64,000 bases of DNA from Halobellus sp. MBLA0158 (GTDB lineage Archaea; Halobacteriota; Halobacteria; Halobacteriales; Haloferacaceae). A model generated the notes under the pieces. It was given only the letters and a program-made list of their open reading frames with translations. It searched no databases and was not told the DNA's origin. Where the stretch lies: contig NZ_JBGNYA010000001.1 of NCBI RefSeq assembly GCF_041477585.1, positions 124,001 to 188,000 of the forward strand, in the 5' to 3' direction. A program made the translations under genes and the position numbers. Shown here in pieces: positions 32,801 through 42,010 of the stretch. How positions within the stretch are numbered: the stretch's first letter is position 1; every line of letters begins with the position of its first letter.

Positions 32801-35800
32801 CTACGTCGTCCGGAGGTAGTCCTGCCGAGGCTCGTAGAGCTCGCCCTTGCGCTTCAGGTTCTCGATCTCGCCTTCGGCCTTCGACTCGTCGAGGCCCAGG
32901 TCGGCGGTCGCGCGCTCGATCACCTCCTCGACGGGCGCGCCCTCCTCGTACTCGTCTTCCAGCTCTTCGATCAGGTGCTTGATGTTCTTGATCCGGTCCC
33001 GCTGGTTCTTCGAGGTGCCGGTCTCGACGATGTCGGCGTCGAACTCGCCCGTCTCGGGGTCCATCCCGATGTCGCGGAGACACGACTCGACGATCTCGGT
33101 CACGCGGACGGCGTCCTCGCGCTCGACCGTGTCGGAGAGGCGGAGCCGCGCCGACGCCTCGGAGAGCCGGACGAGCGCTTCGAGCTTCCGCGCGGTCACC
33201 GGCACGGGGGCGTCGTCGTCGGCACCCTTCGCCCGGAAGTCGACGTAGAAGTCGCGGATGACCTCCTTCGCCTCCTCGGTCATCGTCGGGTAGCAGTTGC
33301 GCTTGGCGTAGGCGATGTACTTCCGGAGGAGCTCGGCGTCGATCTCGGGGGTGACCTCCTCGGTGGCGCTGTCGACCTCGTCGTCTGTGAACTCCGAGCT
33401 CGGGACCTTCGACTTCTGGGTGTGGAGCTCGCCCGCGTAGTTGGTGTTGATGATGTGCTCTGCGAGCTCGGCGTCGGACTCGGGATCGGGGTCGTCGGTG
33501 ACGGTGAAGATCAGGTCGAACCGCGAGATGAGCGCGGGTTCGAGGTCGATCTGCTCGCCGATCGGTTCGTACTGGTCGAAGCGGCCGTACTTCGGGTTCG
33601 CGGCACCGAGTAGCGAACACCGGGATTTGAGGGTGGCGTTGATTCCGGCCTTCGAGACGGAGATGGAATTGTGGAGGACGACGCCGCCGCTGACGAACGT
33701 GTTCGTCGGCTCGACGGTCACGTCGTAGACCCACTCGCAGGCGTGCTCGCCCTCGTTCGGCACCGTCTGGACGTCCCGTACGCGGTAGTAACGCAGGTCG
33801 CACCTGGATTCCAGTGCGTCGATCCGCCTCTCCGCTTCCGTAAGTGCGTCTTCGATCGCGCCGACGGCGTTCCTTCGCATCTCGGCCCGTCGTGCGGCGG
33901 TGTAGCCGCCGTCTTCGGCGTAGTGGACGGCGCTCGTCGTCGCCGCCGGGAGCCGATCGGCGAGCTGTCTCCCCGACCAGCCGACGAGTTCGCGAGCTTC
34001 GGCGAGCGTCGAGACGTCGTCGATCCCGGCGCGGATCGTCTCGGTCCGCTCGCGAAGCGTCTCTAGCTCCGTTTCGACAGTGCTGATCTGGACGCCGTAT
34101 TCCTCATCGAGAGCCGCTCTGAAGCGACCGTCGAGCGGGATTCCGAGGAGGCGTTTGAGCGAGCGGAGTTCCCTCGCGGCGCTCGTCGGGAGGACGTCGT
34201 GATGGCGTTCCGTCTCGTTGCTCCGTTCGACGAACTGCTGGGCTTTCTCGTAGCGATCGTCGGCCGGTTCCACGACCGCTTCGACGAAGCGCTCCGTGGA
34301 ATCGCCCATCACGTACGTCTTCCAGGAATCCTCGGCCTCGTCGTGGTGGATCCGGGACGCCACGCCGATCTTCAGAAGCGCGTCGGCGTAGTCTTCGGCG
34401 AGGCCCGGAGAGGCGGTCGAGAAGGACATCGCCTCGCTTTCGACGCCGCCGTCGCCGGCGAACGCGCCGACGAGGAAGCGCCGGATCTCCTCTTCGGAGG
34501 CGCCGAGGACGGCCGCCGGCATCCGCTTCTGCCGCGATTTCTCCATCACTTCCGGGAAATTCGACTCGAACCACCGGTAGAGCTTCGTCGACACCCACCG
34601 CTTCGTGGTCGTCCCGGCGCCGTTGACCGCGTCCGTGCTCCCCAAGCCGAAGAGGTCGCCCATCAGCCGATCCATCCGGTCGAGGAGCCGTTCGTCCTGG
34701 TTCGAGAACCCGATCTCGTGGGTCCGGCCGCCGGAGTAGGAGTGTCCCTCCGCGGTCAGAAATCCGAGCACCTCCGCGAGATCGGGCGACATCTCGTTCG
34801 GGAAATCGACGTCGCGCTCCTTGCCTCGGTGCTCTTCGTCGGCGAGCGGCATCGGTGCCGCCGAGTTCGGGAGTTTCCGTGGTGCGGGGACGAAATCTCC
34901 CTCCGAGATGTCGGCGGCGTCGACCGTCCCGACCGCGCCCCCGTCGTCGACGAACATCGGGTGTTCCGGCGTGACCGTCACAGAGCGCCCGTTCGAGAGC
35001 GTGACGCGGACGAACTCCTCGGGCGCCTCGTGTCGGCTCACGCGGTCGATCGGGACTTTTTCGACGTCGTTCGCGTCGAGATCGACCGTGTGGACGCCGA
35101 CGTCGTCGACGGGGAGGATCTCGCAGTCGACACCGTCGACGACGTCGTCGGCGCGCTCGTCCATCAGGGAATCCACGAACGGGCCGATCTCGACGCGCCG
35201 GCCATCCGATAGGAGAATCTCGGATTTCGGGTGGTAGGACTGCTGTTCGAGCGCTTCGTGCATCGCGCTTCGATCCTCTGAGTTGTGTACGATCATTCCG
35301 TTCGCGACGAAATTGTGCGTTCCTTGCACGGTGAGATCGTACACCTTGGGTGACCGGTCGCGGCTCTCGATTTCATCGTAGATGGACTCGATCCGAATCC
35401 GAACATCGTCCAGCAGATCGAAGGCGGCCTCACTGACTCGCTCGAAGTTATCGACATCGACTGTTCTCGAGAACCATCGCGAGACAGTCGATCCCGCGAC
35501 GCCTAGTTCGTCCGCGAGCCGCTGGAACGAAACGCCGTGTCGTTCGAGTTCGGATCTGAGTTCGACCCACGACTCGGCCGTCGGCTCCGTATCGAGTAGC
35601 TTCCGGGCGCGTTCTCGGGCACAATCGCGGTCGCAACCGAGTTCGTCGGCTAACTGTCGCTCTAAGACGGGGATCTTGTCGTCGTCGGATGCCGGCGACG
35701 TCGGTTCGACTGATTCGATCCGACGCCACCGAACGTCGGCCGCGACCAGTTCGGAGACTCCTTCGATATCGGTTTCTACGACGGTTTTCAGGATATTTCG

Positions 35801-38416
35801 GAGTCGTTCGGCGACTGTTTCCCGTAGCGCGTCGTCCTGTTCCCAGTGGTAAGAGATCCGTTGCTGTGTGTACGCAGTCCCCGCAGCGAGTTCGCGCTGT
35901 GAGACGTGGTACTCGTCGCGGAGAACGTTGAGAACAGTCCACGACGGGGGTTCGTCTAACAGGTCGAGATCAGTGTACGCCTGGCGACGGCGTGCGGCGA
36001 ACGCAGAGACGATCCGTTTTGCTCGATGGAGCGAGGGGTTCGCATCGCCGTTCTCGAAGTTACAGTACGTCGCCCCGTTGAGTCCACATTCGGACTGATG
36101 AAGTCGCAGCGACTTCCGTATCTGCCGGAGTCGGTCTCCAATATCCGGGAGGACGTCGATAATCGCTCTGTCTCCGGTGGTCCGTCCAGCGGCCTCATCC
36201 AGCGCCGACTGCTTCCGGTCCAGCGTGAATCCGATCTCCCGGTTGTACGAATCTATGGAGTCCGCCGCAGTAATCGCCAAGACGTAGAGGTCACGCTTGT
36301 TTTCACGCGAACGCGTCTGTATCTGACAGCGAATGCTGAACTCCGAGAGGAGCATCTTCGACCCCAACAGCAGATCGTAGCTGCTGGAGTGGATCTTGAC
36401 CGACCGTTCGTCTACGGTCCCCTCCGAATCGGCGAGCGCTCGGATGAAAGCGGCCTTCGTTTCCCCATCGCTTCGAGTGACTTCGACCGGGACACGTTTT
36501 CCCTCGTACGTCTCGAGATTCAGCCCCGACTCAAGGAGGTCGTCGACGTACTCCTTCCCGTGGAGGCGGACTGTTTCGACCCCGTCGTCTCGCTGTTCGC
36601 TCGGGTGTCGGACCGCTTTTTTGCCGTACGCCTTCCGGCAGACCGACTCGAAATGACTGAGGAGTTGTTCTTCCTTGTTCGTAAACCGAATTCCGTGGCT
36701 TCCTCCGGTATCGTGGCTGTAGACGTTGCCGTCGCCGGCGAGATACCCTAGTATCGCACCCTTCGCCGGAGAGAGATCCGCCGCGGGACCGGAAGTATCT
36801 CCGGCCGTCTGCGGAGTTGGAGCCGACGCCGTACCCCCGTCAGTCGCCGTGTCCTGAACGGTCTCGGGAACGTACACCCAATCGCCGGCTTCGAGTTCCG
36901 CAGTCGCTCTCTCGCGGCGGTCGCCGCCCTCGAAGACGAAGAACGGATGGTCGGCAGTTGCAGACACCGACTCGCCGGATTCCAGCGTCACCTCATAGAG
37001 CGTATCGGGAGCGTTGTACTCGTGAACGGCAGTGACGGGGCGTTGAACGAGTTTTCCGTCCTGCGCGAGCGTCCAGACCCCGGTGACGTCGTCTCGGATC
37101 GTCCGACCGTTCGACAGCGGTTCTACCGTGCCTGACGATGCTGCCTCGCGGGCGAGTTCGCGGATCGGCCGGATCCCGTCTGTCGTGTGCACGAGCGTGT
37201 CTCCGGTCACACACCTCATCTTGTCGAGCTCGTCGACGGCCGCGATCCCCTTGTCGGCGAGCACGAGCGCGCCGGCTTCGAGCGTCCACTGCTGTCCGTC
37301 GCCGAAGTCGTCGCGGACGGCCGCCGCGGTGAGCCCCGCCGAGGAACTCCCTTTCCCCGACGTGTAGACGGATCGTGGAGCAATATTGCGTATATATTGC
37401 AACATTGCGCTCTTCCCGGTCCCGGGGTCCCCGATAAGAAGCATATGCAGGTCCCCGCGGATCCGGGATCCGTCCGGGAGGTGCTTCGTGACCCCCGAAA
37501 AGAGCTGGAGGATCATCGCGAGCTTCTCCTGCTCGTAGCCGTAGATCGAGGGCGCGACCGAGGCGACCATCTTCTCGTAGATGTCGGGCTCGTTCGAGAG
37601 GTCGACGATCTCGGCGACGTCCTCGTCTGTGATGTCCATATCCTCGAACTCCTCGTCTTCGATCTCCACCGAGACGCCGTCCATGTAGAGGTCGAAGATG
37701 GGCGTCTTCTCGTTGCCGGAGGTCTGCTGTTCGATGTGGAGGACGCCCGTGACGGTGACGTGGTCGCCCGCGGTCACCTTCCCGGTGACGTCGTCTTCGA
37801 GGTCGATGTCGATGCTCTGTGGCGTCTCGCCGCCCCGCAGGCCCTCGGGGCTCTCCTGAACGCGCACCTTCTGGGCGTCGACGAACTCCGACTGGTCGAA
37901 GTCGACGTGGAACGGCCCCTGGCGCTCGCAGCCCTGGCACTCGTGGGGCTCCTGGAAGCCGCTGTCCGATTGCGGAATGTAGGTCATCGTCCCGCAGCGC
38001 TGGCACTCGAAGGCGGCCTCGGTGATCTTCGGCCGGACGTCGGTGGCCTTGCGGACGATCCCCTGGACGGCGATCAGGCGCCCGATGTGGTCGTCGTGGA
38101 CCCGGATGTCACGGATGTCGACCGTCTCGGGGAGCCCGCGGAGGCGGACGTGCGCGCGGCCCAGTTTGACGTCGGCGGGGAGGTCATAGAGGCGCAGCGC
38201 CTCTTCTGCGTACTCGCGGATCTGGTCGGGCTGCTTGCGGTAGTCCTCGGCGAGCTCGGTGTCGAACTTGTAGAGGTCCTCGTAGTCGACGTAGAGCGAG
38301 CGCTGCTCGTTCGGGTACTTCTGCGCGAGCGTGCCGATCTCGTCGCGGTAGTACTTCCGGTAGAACTGGATGAACCGGTCGGTGAGGTCGCGCGAGTCTT
38401 GGGGGGCCTGGGCCAT
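32801..38416 (-). CDS. mcm: replicative DNA helicase MCM with two inteins
   Basis: The ORF encodes 1871 residues; removing two inteins (644 and 524 residues) leaves a 703-residue MCM, a normal archaeal size. The N-terminal domain has the zinc-binding cysteines CQRCGTMTY and CQGCERQG; the AAA+ core has Walker A LIGDPGTGKSAM and Walker B AAVDELDKM, then pre-sensor and sensor 1 (ISVSKAGINATLKSRCSLLG, GAANPKYGRFD), the arginine-finger region LISRFDLIF and a C-terminal winged helix. Intein 1 sits right after Walker B and intein 2 before the pre-sensor-1 hairpin, with only 14 extein residues between. cttacc at 38441-38446 is 28 nt upstream of the ATG. Confidence 0.97.
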   Translation of the reverse strand: MAQAPQDSRDLTDRFIQFYRKYYRDEIGTLAQKYPNEQRSLYVDYEDLYKFDTELAEDYRKQPDQIREYAEEALRLYDLPADVKLGRAHVRLRGLPETVDIRDIRVHDDHIGRLIAVQGIVRKATDVRPKITEAAFECQRCGTMTYIPQSDSGFQEPHECQGCERQGPFHVDFDQSEFVDAQKVRVQESPEGLRGGETPQSIDIDLEDDVTGKVTAGDHVTVTGVLHIEQQTSGNEKTPIFDLYMDGVSVEIEDEEFEDMDITDEDVAEIVDLSNEPDIYEKMVASVAPSIYGYEQEKLAMILQLFSGVTKHLPDGSRIRGDLHMLLIGDPGTGKSAMLQYIRNIAPRSVYTSGKGSSSAGLTAAAVRDDFGDGQQWTLEAGALVLADKGIAAVDELDKMRCVTGDTLVHTTDGIRPIRELAREAASSGTVEPLSNGRTIRDDVTGVWTLAQDGKLVQRPVTAVHEYNAPDTLYEVTLESGESVSATADHPFFVFEGGDRRERATAELEAGDWVYVPETVQDTATDGGTASAPTPQTAGDTSGPAADLSPAKGAILGYLAGDGNVYSHDTGGSHGIRFTNKEEQLLSHFESVCRKAYGKKAVRHPSEQRDDGVETVRLHGKEYVDDLLESGLNLETYEGKRVPVEVTRSDGETKAAFIRALADSEGTVDERSVKIHSSSYDLLLGSKMLLSEFSIRCQIQTRSRENKRDLYVLAITAADSIDSYNREIGFTLDRKQSALDEAAGRTTGDRAIIDVLPDIGDRLRQIRKSLRLHQSECGLNGATYCNFENGDANPSLHRAKRIVSAFAARRRQAYTDLDLLDEPPSWTVLNVLRDEYHVSQRELAAGTAYTQQRISYHWEQDDALRETVAERLRNILKTVVETDIEGVSELVAADVRWRRIESVEPTSPASDDDKIPVLERQLADELGCDRDCARERARKLLDTEPTAESWVELRSELERHGVSFQRLADELGVAGSTVSRWFSRTVDVDNFERVSEAAFDLLDDVRIRIESIYDEIESRDRSPKVYDLTVQGTHNFVANGMIVHNSEDRSAMHEALEQQSYHPKSEILLSDGRRVEIGPFVDSLMDERADDVVDGVDCEILPVDDVGVHTVDLDANDVEKVPIDRVSRHEAPEEFVRVTLSNGRSVTVTPEHPMFVDDGGAVGTVDAADISEGDFVPAPRKLPNSAAPMPLADEEHRGKERDVDFPNEMSPDLAEVLGFLTAEGHSYSGGRTHEIGFSNQDERLLDRMDRLMGDLFGLGSTDAVNGAGTTTKRWVSTKLYRWFESNFPEVMEKSRQKRMPAAVLGASEEEIRRFLVGAFAGDGGVESEAMSFSTASPGLAEDYADALLKIGVASRIHHDEAEDSWKTYVMGDSTERFVEAVVEPADDRYEKAQQFVERSNETERHHDVLPTSAARELRSLKRLLGIPLDGRFRAALDEEYGVQISTVETELETLRERTETIRAGIDDVSTLAEARELVGWSGRQLADRLPAATTSAVHYAEDGGYTAARRAEMRRNAVGAIEDALTEAERRIDALESRCDLRYYRVRDVQTVPNEGEHACEWVYDVTVEPTNTFVSGGVVLHNSISVSKAGINATLKSRCSLLGAANPKYGRFDQYEPIGEQIDLEPALISRFDLIFTVTDDPDPESDAELAEHIINTNYAGELHTQKSKVPSSEFTDDEVDSATEEVTPEIDAELLRKYIAYAKRNCYPTMTEEAKEVIRDFYVDFRAKGADDDAPVPVTARKLEALVRLSEASARLRLSDTVEREDAVRVTEIVESCLRDIGMDPETGEFDADIVETGTSKNQRDRIKNIKHLIEELEDEYEEGAPVEEVIERATADLGLDESKAEGEIENLKRKGELYEPRQDYLRTT
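33668..35239 (-). mobile_element. MCM intein 2 (524 residues, LAGLIDADG type)
   Basis: Boundaries follow from host conservation: extein EALEQQ, then SYHPKSEILLSDG, and at the far end VVLHN followed by SISVSKAG. The intein begins with Ser and ends in His-Asn with Ser at +1. Splicing block B has VTVTPEHPMFV, and the C-terminal block is VYDVTVEPTNTFVSGG. LAGLIDADG motifs are VLGFLTAEGHSYS and FLVGAFAGDGGVES, both with acidic residues, so the endonuclease may be active. An HTH-like segment (ARELVGWSGRQLADRL, then TTSAVHYAEDGG) lies at about 33880-34010. Confidence 0.93.
35282..37213 (-). mobile_element. MCM intein 1 (644 residues, LAGLIDADG plus HTH repeats)
   Basis: Inserted after DELDKMR; begins CVTGDTLVHTTDG (Cys1) and ends GMIVHN with Ser at +1. 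Block B is SVSATADHPFFVF. LAGLIDADG motifs are ILGYLAGDGNVYS and FIRALADSEGTVDE. Three XRE-like HTH segments follow: DRLRQIRKSLRLHQSECG (~36010-36150), VLRDEYHVSQRELAAGTA (~35830-35930) and FQRLADELGVAGSTVSRW (~35445-35570). The last is placed between two strands of the splicing fold (VRWRRIESVEPTSP and VYDLTVQGTHNFVANG). By eye it is richer in A/T than the extein. Confidence 0.93.
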
Positions 38417-38484: not shown

Positions 38485-39186
38485 TCACAGCGACACGTCG
38501 GTCTCGATGTCTTCTGTGGCCTCGCGCAGGCCGTCCTCGCGGGCGTCCTCCGCGAGCCGCGTCGAGAGGTCCGCGTCTGTGAGCAGTTCCGCGAAGGCGT
38601 CGCGGAAGCGGTGGCTCGCGCGCCGGGAGGCGAGGTCGGCCGCCGCGACGCGGCGATAGCGGCGGACCGTCTCGGCGTCGGGCGCGGAGTCGACGCCCTC
38701 CGACGCCGCGAGCGATTCGGCCAGATCGACATCGTCGACATCCGCGCCGGTCCCGACGCCGCCCTCGTCGCTCGCCCGCGACACGAGCGCGCGGAGTCGC
38801 TCGTAGGGGAACGGGGCGTCGCGGTCGGTCGCCGCGACGAGGTGGAGGTCCATCCGCGCGCGGAAGATATCGTCCGCGTCTGCGTCGGTGTCGAGCGACG
38901 CCGCGAGTGCGGCGTCGGCGTCCCGCGACCACGACTCCGGCCCGGCGCCGTCGATCTCGGGTTCGAAGAAGCCGCGGACGACCTCCCGGAGGTCGGCCGT
39001 CGACAGCGACGACGCGAAGTCGTAGCGCTCGCGCATCTCCTCGACGAGTTCGGTCAGGCGCTCGTCGACGGTCGCGTCGTCGGCGCTCGACAGCGACCCG
39101 CGCGGGTCGGACTGGGACTCCGTCACGGTCTCCTCGCCCGTGGTCGACACGAACAGGTCGCGGAGTTCGGCCGTCTTGTCGTCCAT
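38485..39186 (-). CDS. conserved haloarchaeal protein upstream of mcm
   Basis: A 233-residue acidic, largely helical soluble protein (MDDKTAELRDLFVSTTGEE at the N terminus; ERLTELVEEMRERYDFASSL; VRRYRRVAAADLASRRASHR). No membrane segment, cysteine cluster or known catalytic motif is seen. ATG 39186 lies 27 nt after ctttgtacg on the minus strand. It precedes mcm on the same strand with a 68-bp gap and might belong to the replication gene cluster by context only. Confidence 0.7.
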   Translation of the reverse strand: MDDKTAELRDLFVSTTGEETVTESQSDPRGSLSSADDATVDERLTELVEEMRERYDFASSLSTADLREVVRGFFEPEIDGAGPESWSRDADAALAASLDTDADADDIFRARMDLHLVAATDRDAPFPYERLRALVSRASDEGGVGTGADVDDVDLAESLAASEGVDSAPDAETVRRYRRVAAADLASRRASHRFRDAFAELLTDADLSTRLAEDAREDGLREATEDIETDVSL

Positions 39187-39268: not shown

Positions 39269-39298
39269 CGTAAACCGAACGATTCATACGAGTTTACG
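39269..39298. promoter_or_regulatory. BirA-like biotin operator over the bioY promoter
   Basis: CGTAAAC (39269-39275) and GTTTACG (39292-39298) are perfect inverted half-sites with a 16-bp spacer. This matches the known BirA box arrangement (GTAAAC-N14-16-GTTTAC). The spacer contains attcata (39282-39288), centred 28 nt before the bioY ATG, so a bound repressor would cover the TATA box. Confidence 0.7.
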
Positions 39299-39312: not shown

Positions 39313-39894
39313 ATGTCGACAGAGACGGAGTCGGTCGAACTCGTCGGCGACGACGTCGTCGGCAACGTCGCGCGGGCGGCGTTGTTTGCGGCGCTCACCG
39401 GCGCGTTCGCGTACGTGTCGTTTCCAAATCCGATCTCGCCCGTCCCGGTGAGCCTCCAGGTGCTCGGGGTCTTCCTCGCGGGGATCTTCCTCGGGCCGGT
39501 CTGGGGCGGCGTCTCGCTCGCGTTCTACCTCGCCGCGGGGGCCGCCGGCGCGCCGATCTTCGCGGGCGGCTCCGCCGGCATCGGCCCGCTCGTCGGCTAC
39601 ACCGCGGGCTACCTCTGGTCGTACCCGATCGCCGCCGCGCTGATCGGCGCCGTCGTCCACGGCACCGACGACCTCGCGGACCCGAAGAACGTCGGGACGG
39701 CCCGGCTCGTCGCCGGGATGGTCGCCGGGACGGTCGTGATCTACGCGCTCGGGACGGTCGGTTTCTCCCTGGTCCAGAACGTCGGGCTCGTGGAGGCCTT
39801 CACCGTGAGCGCGCTGGCGTTCGTGCCGTTCGAGGCCGTGAAGATCGCCGCCGCCGTCGGCGTCGTCCGGAGCGACGCGGCCGCGGCCGCGTGA
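39313..39894 (+). CDS. bioY: biotin transporter BioY (ECF S component)
   Basis: A 193-residue membrane protein with six helices and the BioY signatures PNPISPVPVSLQVLGVFLAG, LGPVWGGVSLAFYLAAGAAG, GAPIFAGGSAGIGPLVGYTA and AGYLWSYPIAAALIG. BioY binds biotin and works with an ECF module, which is encoded by the next two genes. The ATG is 28 nt after a TATA element lying between BirA-like half-sites, suggesting repression when biotin is plentiful. Confidence 0.96.
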   Translation: MSTETESVELVGDDVVGNVARAALFAALTGAFAYVSFPNPISPVPVSLQVLGVFLAGIFLGPVWGGVSLAFYLAAGAAGAPIFAGGSAGIGPLVGYTAGYLWSYPIAAALIGAVVHGTDDLADPKNVGTARLVAGMVAGTVVIYALGTVGFSLVQNVGLVEAFTVSALAFVPFEAVKIAAAVGVVRSDAAAAA

Positions 39895-39931: not shown

Positions 39932-40672
39932 GTGATCCGCACCGAGAACCTAGTCCACCGCTACGGCGACGCCGTCGCGGTCGACGGCGTCTCGATCGAG
40001 ATCGGGGACGGCGAGTGCGTCGTCCTCGCGGGCGCGAACGGCTCCGGCAAGACAACCCTCGTGCGGCACTTCAACGGCCTCTTAGAGCCCGATTCGGGAT
40101 CGGTCGCGGTGAACGGCCGCGCGGTCGGCGCGGACCTCGTGGCCGCTCGGACCGCCGTGGGGATGGTGTTTCAGGATCCGAGAGACCAGTTCGTCGCGGC
40201 CACCGTCGGCGCCGACGTCGCCTTCGGGCCCGAGAACCTCGGGCTCGAACGGGGAGAAATCGACCGGCGCGTCGCGGACGCGCTGGCAGCGGTGAACCTC
40301 GCCGGCCGCGAAGACGACCGCGTGACAGACCTCTCGGGCGGCGAGCGCGAGCGCGTCGCGATCGCGGGCGCCGTGGCGATGGAGCCCGACCACCTCGTCC
40401 TCGACGAGCCGTTCACCGGGCTCGACGCGCCCGCCCGCGAGTCGGTCCTCGATCGCCTCCGCGCGCTCGCCGCCGACGGAACGAGCGTCGTGGTCGTGAC
40501 CCACGACCTGCGCGACGTCCTCGACCTCGCCGATCGGGTGGTCGCGATGTCGGCGGGGCGCGTCGTCGTCGACGATGACCCCGAAACCGCGCGGGCGGCT
40601 CTTCCCGACTACGACGTGCGGGTGCCCGAAGCAGAGCGCGGGAGCACTGACGCGCGGAGCGACGGATGCTGA
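39932..40672 (+). CDS. ECF transporter ATPase (BioM-like)
   Basis: A 246-residue ABC ATPase: Walker A LAGANGSGKTTLVRHFNG, Q-loop VFQDPRDQFVAATVGADVAF, signature LSGGERERVAIAGAVAMEP, Walker B HLVLDEPFTGLD, and switch His in VVVVTHDLRDVLDLAD. It starts with GTG 37 bp after bioY and overlaps ecfT by 7 bp. It energises biotin uptake with BioY and EcfT. Only one ATPase gene is present, so the module is probably BioMNY-like with an ATPase homodimer. Confidence 0.95.
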   Translation: MIRTENLVHRYGDAVAVDGVSIEIGDGECVVLAGANGSGKTTLVRHFNGLLEPDSGSVAVNGRAVGADLVAARTAVGMVFQDPRDQFVAATVGADVAFGPENLGLERGEIDRRVADALAAVNLAGREDDRVTDLSGGERERVAIAGAVAMEPDHLVLDEPFTGLDAPARESVLDRLRALAADGTSVVVVTHDLRDVLDLADRVVAMSAGRVVVDDDPETARAALPDYDVRVPEAERGSTDARSDGC

Positions 40673-41382
40673 GCTACCGCCCCGGCGACTCCCTCGCTCA
40701 CCGGCTCGACCCGCGGACCAAGCTCCTCTGCCAGGCGGCGTTCGCGCTCGCGGCGTTCGCCCACACGACGCCCCGCGGGCTCGCCGCGCTGACGGGCGTC
40801 GCCGGGCTCTTTCTGGCCAGCGGCCGCGTCTCGCCGATCCGCGCGGTCCGCGGCTACCTGCCCGCGCTTCCCTTCCTGGTCGCCGGGCCGCTCGTGGCGA
40901 CCGTCGGCGTCGACCTCCGCGGGTGGACGGTCGGCCTCGATTCCGGCGCGGCCGCCGGCCCGCTGCTCGCGAGCTACCGCGTCCTCCTGATCCTCCTCGT
41001 GTCGGCGACGTACCTGGAGACGACGCCCGTCCGCGACTCCCGCGCGGCGATCCAGCGGCTCGTGCCCGGGAAGCCCGGGCGACTGCTGGGCGTCGGCGTC
41101 GCGCTCGTGTTCCGGTTCGTGCCGCTCCTGCGGGCGGATCTCGGTCGCGTCCGGGACGCCTCGCGGGCGAGGCTCGGCACGGAGCGGCCGCTTCGGGACC
41201 GGATGCAGGTCGTCGCGGCCGCCGGACTCCGACGGGCGTTCGGCCGGGCCGACCGGCTCGCGCTCGCGCTCCGGGCCCGGTGTTTCGCGTGGAATCCCAC
41301 GCTCCCGGCGCTCCGGTTCGGTCGGTCCGACGCCCTCGGGCTGGGCGTCGCGGGCGCGCTGGCGGCGTCGGCGCTGCTCTGA
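40666..41382 (+). CDS. ECF transporter transmembrane protein EcfT (BioN-like)
   Basis: A 238-residue membrane protein beginning MLSYRPGDSLAHRLDPRTKL, typical of EcfT, with about five hydrophobic segments and a coupling region containing the A-R-G-type motif (ADRLALALRARCF). The conserved LGVGVALVFRFVPLLRADLG precedes it. It couples the ATPase to BioY. The ORF overlaps the ATPase gene by 7 bp, and the three biotin genes form one operon. Confidence 0.93.
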   Translation: MLSYRPGDSLAHRLDPRTKLLCQAAFALAAFAHTTPRGLAALTGVAGLFLASGRVSPIRAVRGYLPALPFLVAGPLVATVGVDLRGWTVGLDSGAAAGPLLASYRVLLILLVSATYLETTPVRDSRAAIQRLVPGKPGRLLGVGVALVFRFVPLLRADLGRVRDASRARLGTERPLRDRMQVVAAAGLRRAFGRADRLALALRARCFAWNPTLPALRFGRSDALGLGVAGALAASALL

Positions 41383-41931: not shown

Positions 41932-42009
41932 ATACTGTCGGACACAAGTCTGTGAAGAATTTCGGCGCCCGGGGCGGCGAATATCTTGAAACAGTTGTGT
42001 CCGACAGTA

Positions 42010-42010
<1 letters not shown>
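41932..42010. repeat. 79-bp element with perfect 16-bp terminal inverted repeats
   Basis: The arms 41932-41947 and 41995-42010 are perfect reverse complements (ATACTGTCGGACACAA), and the 47-bp interior is itself imperfectly palindromic around a GC-rich centre. The element lies between the ferredoxin stop codon, which it touches, and the ferritin-like gene's promoter. The first 9 bases (ATACTGTCG) recur at 41889-41897. TA dinucleotides at both ends would fit an IS630/Tc1-type miniature element; alternatively the arms are operators or a terminator. Confidence 0.7.

Follow-up and report, generated by a model that had tools for sequence, protein, structure and literature searches.

The promoter of the biotin uptake operon bioY-ecfA-ecfT of Halobellus sp. 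MBLA0158 carries a 30 bp inverted repeat, CGTAAAC-N16-GTTTACG, very probably an operator for the bifunctional BirA that the organism itself encodes and the site through which holo-BirA would repress the operon. The site, its conservation, the company of biotin genes in which it occurs and the architecture of the helix-turn-helix (HTH) ligase were each established directly. The repeat was identified from sequence reading and conservation at bioY in a window of 64,000 nucleotides (the whole stretch of DNA analyzed) at positions 39269–39298, and is assigned to neither strand. The left half-site CGTAAAC (39269–39275, + strand), with its core GTAAAC, and the right half-site GTTTACG (39292–39298, + strand), both based on the sequence and on a survey of bioY loci, form a perfect 7+7 inverted repeat around a 16-nt spacer (39276–39291, CGAACGATTCATACGA). 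A TATA-like ATTCATA (39282–39288, + strand), centered 28 nt ahead of the bioY ATG at 39313, is flanked on both sides by the operator arms. It is preceded, within the operator, by CGAACG (39276–39281, + strand; family consensus CGAAG), which is the probable BRE region, judging from conserved columns of the bioY spacer. The original prediction described CGTAAAC-N16-GTTTACG with ATTCATA at −28 from the bioY ATG, and this arrangement can be read directly in the sequence. Its further claim, that half-sites and spacing match the BirA box, holds against the published consensus TTGTAAACC-[N14/15]-GGTTTACAA (PMC545781). The site reads CGTAAACC-N14-AGTTTACG, with the inner right arm differing at one base, and it lies in the promoter of a biotin uptake gene, bioY, the location expected for a BirA regulon of biotin uptake and synthesis genes.

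The pattern GTAAAC-N10..20-GTTTAC occurs once in the window and in none of 100 shuffles. Restricted to N14..16, it is found as a single copy in the 3,286,070-bp genome, with no match for the reversed-pattern control. A genome scan allowing up to three mismatches returned 12 matches, including the bioY operator, versus 14 per strand for the reversed-pattern control. A near-match with two mismatches (C1:524684) was rejected as a second site, as it precedes a small unrelated gene and is at chance level. The accC-birA operon of Halobellus contains no box, the best match having three mismatches.

The S, A and T units of a BioY-type ECF transporter are encoded on the + strand in one operon downstream of the box, as had been proposed and is now confirmed by their Pfam families. 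These are bioY, the biotin-specific S component (39313–39894; PF02632, E 7.9e-36), ecfA, a bioM-like ABC ATPase (39932–40672; PF00005, ABC_tran, E 2.5e-29), and ecfT, a bioN-like transmembrane component (40666–41382; PF02361, CbiQ, E 2.6e-15). The ecfA and ecfT reading frames share 7 nt, and ecfA scores 222 bits against TIGR04520, under the cut-off of that model. The closest BioY proteins among named relatives are those of Halobellus species (Haloferacaceae), with sequence identities of 87–92%. BioB was not found over the family cut-off in the genome of Halobellus sp. MBLA0158 (best match 37 bits, partial) and the organism is, therefore, probably a biotin auxotroph dependent on uptake. The divergent neighbor of bioY (38485–39186, − strand) has no Pfam family and probably lies outside the regulon; several relatives also have a similar ORF (MDEKTAELRDIF...) divergent to bioY. 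Elsewhere in the window, an MCM helicase gene (32801–38416, − strand; 1871 aa) contains two inteins with LAGLIDADG domains, identified by Pfam. A 79-bp element (41932–42010) with perfect 16-bp terminal inverted repeats (ATACTGTCGGACACAA) sits between ferritin-like and ferredoxin-like genes and resembles a MITE.

The absence of an HTH-containing BirA would have counted against the original prediction; one is encoded in the same genome. This protein of 328 residues carries an N-terminal DNA-binding domain, as expected of the regulator of a BirA regulon: an HTH_11 domain that scores over its cut-off (E 8e-11) is followed by BPL_LplA_LipB and BPL_C. Its gene is directly 3′ of a biotin carboxylase-type gene (accC-type by reading). 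An AF2 model, computed with 33 haloarchaeal sequences as input (pLDDT 90), has a canonical winged HTH ahead of the ligase, consisting of helices 2–12 and 19–26, a recognition helix (30–42) and a wing (strands 46–50 and 53–58). Comparison of the model with PDB structures placed S. aureus and E. coli BirA among the best matches, and the recognition helix reads SRAAVWKHI, compared to SRAAINKHI in E. coli BirA. The NCBIfam model TIGR00122 (birA_repr_reg, cut-off 70 bits) gives Halobellus BirA only 45.6 bits. As none of 243 genomes reaches this cut-off, the model appears to be tuned to bacteria.

The box is conserved far beyond this genome. At 135 bioY loci across the Halobacteriales, CGTMAAC-N15/16-GTTKACG is perfect at 71, within one mismatch at 119 and within two mismatches at 126, while none of 461 control stretches matches within two mismatches. 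The right arm ends 13–14 nt ahead of the bioY start at most of these loci, and the arms are constant while the sequence around them varies. Among 29 named haloarchaeal bioY loci, all have the box within two mismatches and 20 have a perfect one; it is perfect at all six named Halobellus loci, where 14 nt separate the right arm from the start. Retention upstream of bioY in close relatives, on which the original prediction also depended, was thereby borne out and extends to distant relatives. These sequence comparisons give good support to the box as a real element, conserved across the whole haloarchaeal order. An apparent absence in genus g28 and genome G224 was ruled out, since their spacer is N15 and had been missed by a fixed-N16 pattern. 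The bioY box of genus g22 (family f5), 36 nt before the start, is a near direct repeat, CGTMAACC-N14-GGTAAACC, and not inverted, in all five genomes examined, so that a symmetric dimer would not contact both arms in the usual way.

Further copies had been anticipated at other biotin genes. This did not hold within the Halobellus genome, which has the single copy at bioY and no bioB over the cut-off, and did hold among relatives, at bioB and accC-birA. The box was found at 30 of 30 bioB genes examined in haloarchaeal relatives, and it precedes accC in some accC-birA operons (loci L089, L058 and L068; genomes G133, G186 and G085). A second box about 3 kb 5′ of birA in three genomes (G054, G071 and G078) fits the same operon. 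Since it is present at bioY, bioB and accC-birA operons, the box marks a biotin regulon, and these genes are the set expected of a BirA regulon.

Two promoter layouts are observed. The spacer of bioY boxes is conserved as CGAAG...TTnA (consensus CGTAAACCGAAGTTTTGATCTCGGTTTACG), and across the order the arms appear to enclose BRE and TATA; 79 of 121 bioY sites have TTNA at the corresponding place in the spacer, compared to 0 of 29 bioB sites. At bioB, the spacer lacks a TATA, and a TATA-like element (e.g. ccgaatctttatc) is located within 20 nt directly 5′ of the left arm. The right arm overlaps the bioB start codon (GTG GTT TAC GAR ACN, encoding VVYET), and operator and coding constraints, therefore, coincide. 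Such an overlap was noted in nearly all haloarchaea examined (L210–L239; VVYETG). Based on these two layouts, bound BirA would sit over the TATA in the case of bioY and over the initiation region in that of bioB. We infer the step blocked at each promoter from these positions, and the position of the bioY box likewise suggests that BirA may compete directly with TBP, as originally proposed.

Genome G230 combines a biotin ligase that lacks the HTH (L147) with a bioY without the box, the one clean natural case of paired loss. This ligase is preceded, at a distance of less than 100 nt, by the start of a divergent gene (hisD-like by reading), which leaves no room for an HTH. Eleven genomes without bioY also have no match to Halobellus BirA and no palindromic site. 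In G210, which has neither bioY nor site, the recognition helix of BirA is degenerate (SRTAVRRAV). Two genomes (G019 and G028) contain an HTH-BirA and a bioB box together with a divergent bioY that has no box. A second, HTH-less biotin ligase, about 41–50% identical to the ligase part, is present in G020 (L149) and G229 (L150), with matches also in G044, G060, G117, G132 and G181.

Residue x of the recognition-helix motif SRxAVWKH is asparagine in family f12, in some genomes of f11 and in two of f3. The bioY boxes of asparagine genomes have GTCAAC in both arms in 26 of 26 cases, and boxes with GTAAAC in both arms are accompanied only by alanine (42 of 42). Alanine is also paired with CC (15) and AC (17) boxes, and the bioB boxes of asparagine genomes are mixed in half-site type. 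Strict co-variation of residue x with the half-site base was rejected, as alanine accompanies either type and the classes track family membership. For the same reasons, tuning of the fourth half-site base by residue x is a lead, suggestive only, and not a test. The full combination, in which one BirA box serves two order-wide layouts (TBP/TFB exclusion at bioY, a polymerase or start-codon block at bioB) and residue x provides a specificity code, is a tentative proposal, somewhat more apt to fail in one of its parts than to hold in all.

By analogy with known bacterial BirA, from which the corepressor, dimerization, sign of regulation and TBP exclusion are taken, the following mechanism may be envisaged. 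With ample biotin and no unbiotinylated carrier protein left to modify, BirA carrying biotinyl-5′-AMP would dimerize, and its two HTH domains would bind the two GTAAAC half-sites. The bound dimer would cover the BRE and TATA of bioY and keep TBP/TFB off, silencing the uptake genes bioY-ecfA-ecfT. Under biotin limitation, BirA would act as a ligase and leave the DNA, and uptake would be derepressed.

Weighing against this scheme are the restriction of the Halobellus box to a single operon, the score of its BirA below the birA_repr_reg cut-off, the occurrence of paired HTH and box loss in one genome, and the boxless bioY of G019 and G028, which have an HTH-BirA. The part most exposed to revision is the exclusion of TBP. 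BirA might bind the box and activate, or form a roadblock once TBP/TFB are bound, and the bioB box, just 3′ of its TATA and overlapping the start codon, indicates that BirA need not cover a TATA to act. Nevertheless, the TATA enclosed by the bioY arms across the order, with the TTNA contrast between bioY and bioB sites, favors occlusion, and BirA is a repressor of biotin genes in those bacteria in which it has been studied, such as B. subtilis (PMC4016012); we consider action without exclusion unlikely. There is a smaller chance that a different haloarchaeal regulator of biotin genes binds the box and that BirA carries a vestigial HTH. The evidence linking box and BirA is entirely comparative, and numerous further HTH_11 proteins are encoded in the Halobellus genome. 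However, core, spacing and A/C variant of the box are identical to those of the BirA consensus of bacteria, and G230, the sole bioY-bearing genome whose BirA lacks an HTH, also lacks the box there. In addition, genomes with the box retain SRxAVWKH, in contrast to its degenerate form in G210, which lost bioY and box.

Least probable of all, to the point of being hardly credible, are readings of the repeat as a hairpin or terminator formed in the transcript or as a palindrome that arose by chance. The strand can fold, albeit weakly (z −1.3), but the predicted transcription start is downstream of the bioY box, and no terminator-like site was found. Moreover, three unrelated operons share the sequence of the half-sites and not only their ability to pair, and the 461 controls yielded no matches. 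Repression of bioY by BirA itself, thus preferred, would place a vitamin repressor of bacterial type, conserved together with its operator across haloarchaea according to comparative genomics, on a eukaryote-like TBP/TFB promoter. A repressor that engages the basal transcription machinery of archaea at two separate points could be tested directly by Haloferax genetics. The system would, if confirmed, also provide a ready-made biotin-responsive promoter for haloarchaea.

The bacterial BirA operators (E. coli bioO; B. subtilis bioW, yuiG and yhfU; the bio operons of delta-proteobacteria) have in common with the haloarchaeal box the half-site GTAAACC/GGTTTAC. The haloarchaeal box, nCGTMAACC-N14-GGTTKACGn, shares the bacterial core, spacing and A/C alternation (GTcAAC/GTTgAC), the last seen in the TTGTcAACC/GGTTgACAA of Desulfuromonas and Geobacter (PMC545781). 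The outer bases differ, being CG in the haloarchaeal box and TG or TT in the bacterial one, and the haloarchaeal box lies within a BRE/TATA promoter of archaeal type, in contrast to the bacterial promoter that houses the bacterial operator. As in the bacterial BirA regulon, the targets are biotin uptake and synthesis genes and the regulator is a winged-HTH biotin ligase; unlike in bacteria, accC-birA operons are also targets in some haloarchaeal species. The ligase domain is 28–35% identical, by structure match, to those of Group I biotin protein ligases (e.g. Pyrococcus horikoshii and M. jannaschii), which lack the N-terminal HTH present in Halobellus BirA. Other biotin-gene repressors, BioR (GntR) and BioQ (TetR), also act via palindromes, although both the proteins and their boxes are different from those of BirA. 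BioR is named in PMC4554459.

Both BPL and BirA genes have been mentioned for Halobacterium (PMC3199775). A literature search, in which the 2002 paper of Rodionov, Mironov and Gelfand (PMID 12368242) was represented by its title and citations, found no description or test of a haloarchaeal BirA box. According to that title and to citing papers (PMC545781, PMC4877710, PMC3199775), both the biotin regulon and the BirA signal are conserved in bacteria and archaea, and, as far as these indicate, the archaeal signal proposed then is the same proposal as our reading of haloarchaeal bioY. The present analysis contributes the survey across the order, the description of two promoter layouts and the loss pairs. 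Thus, the bioY box is well supported as a strong example of an already known type of regulon.
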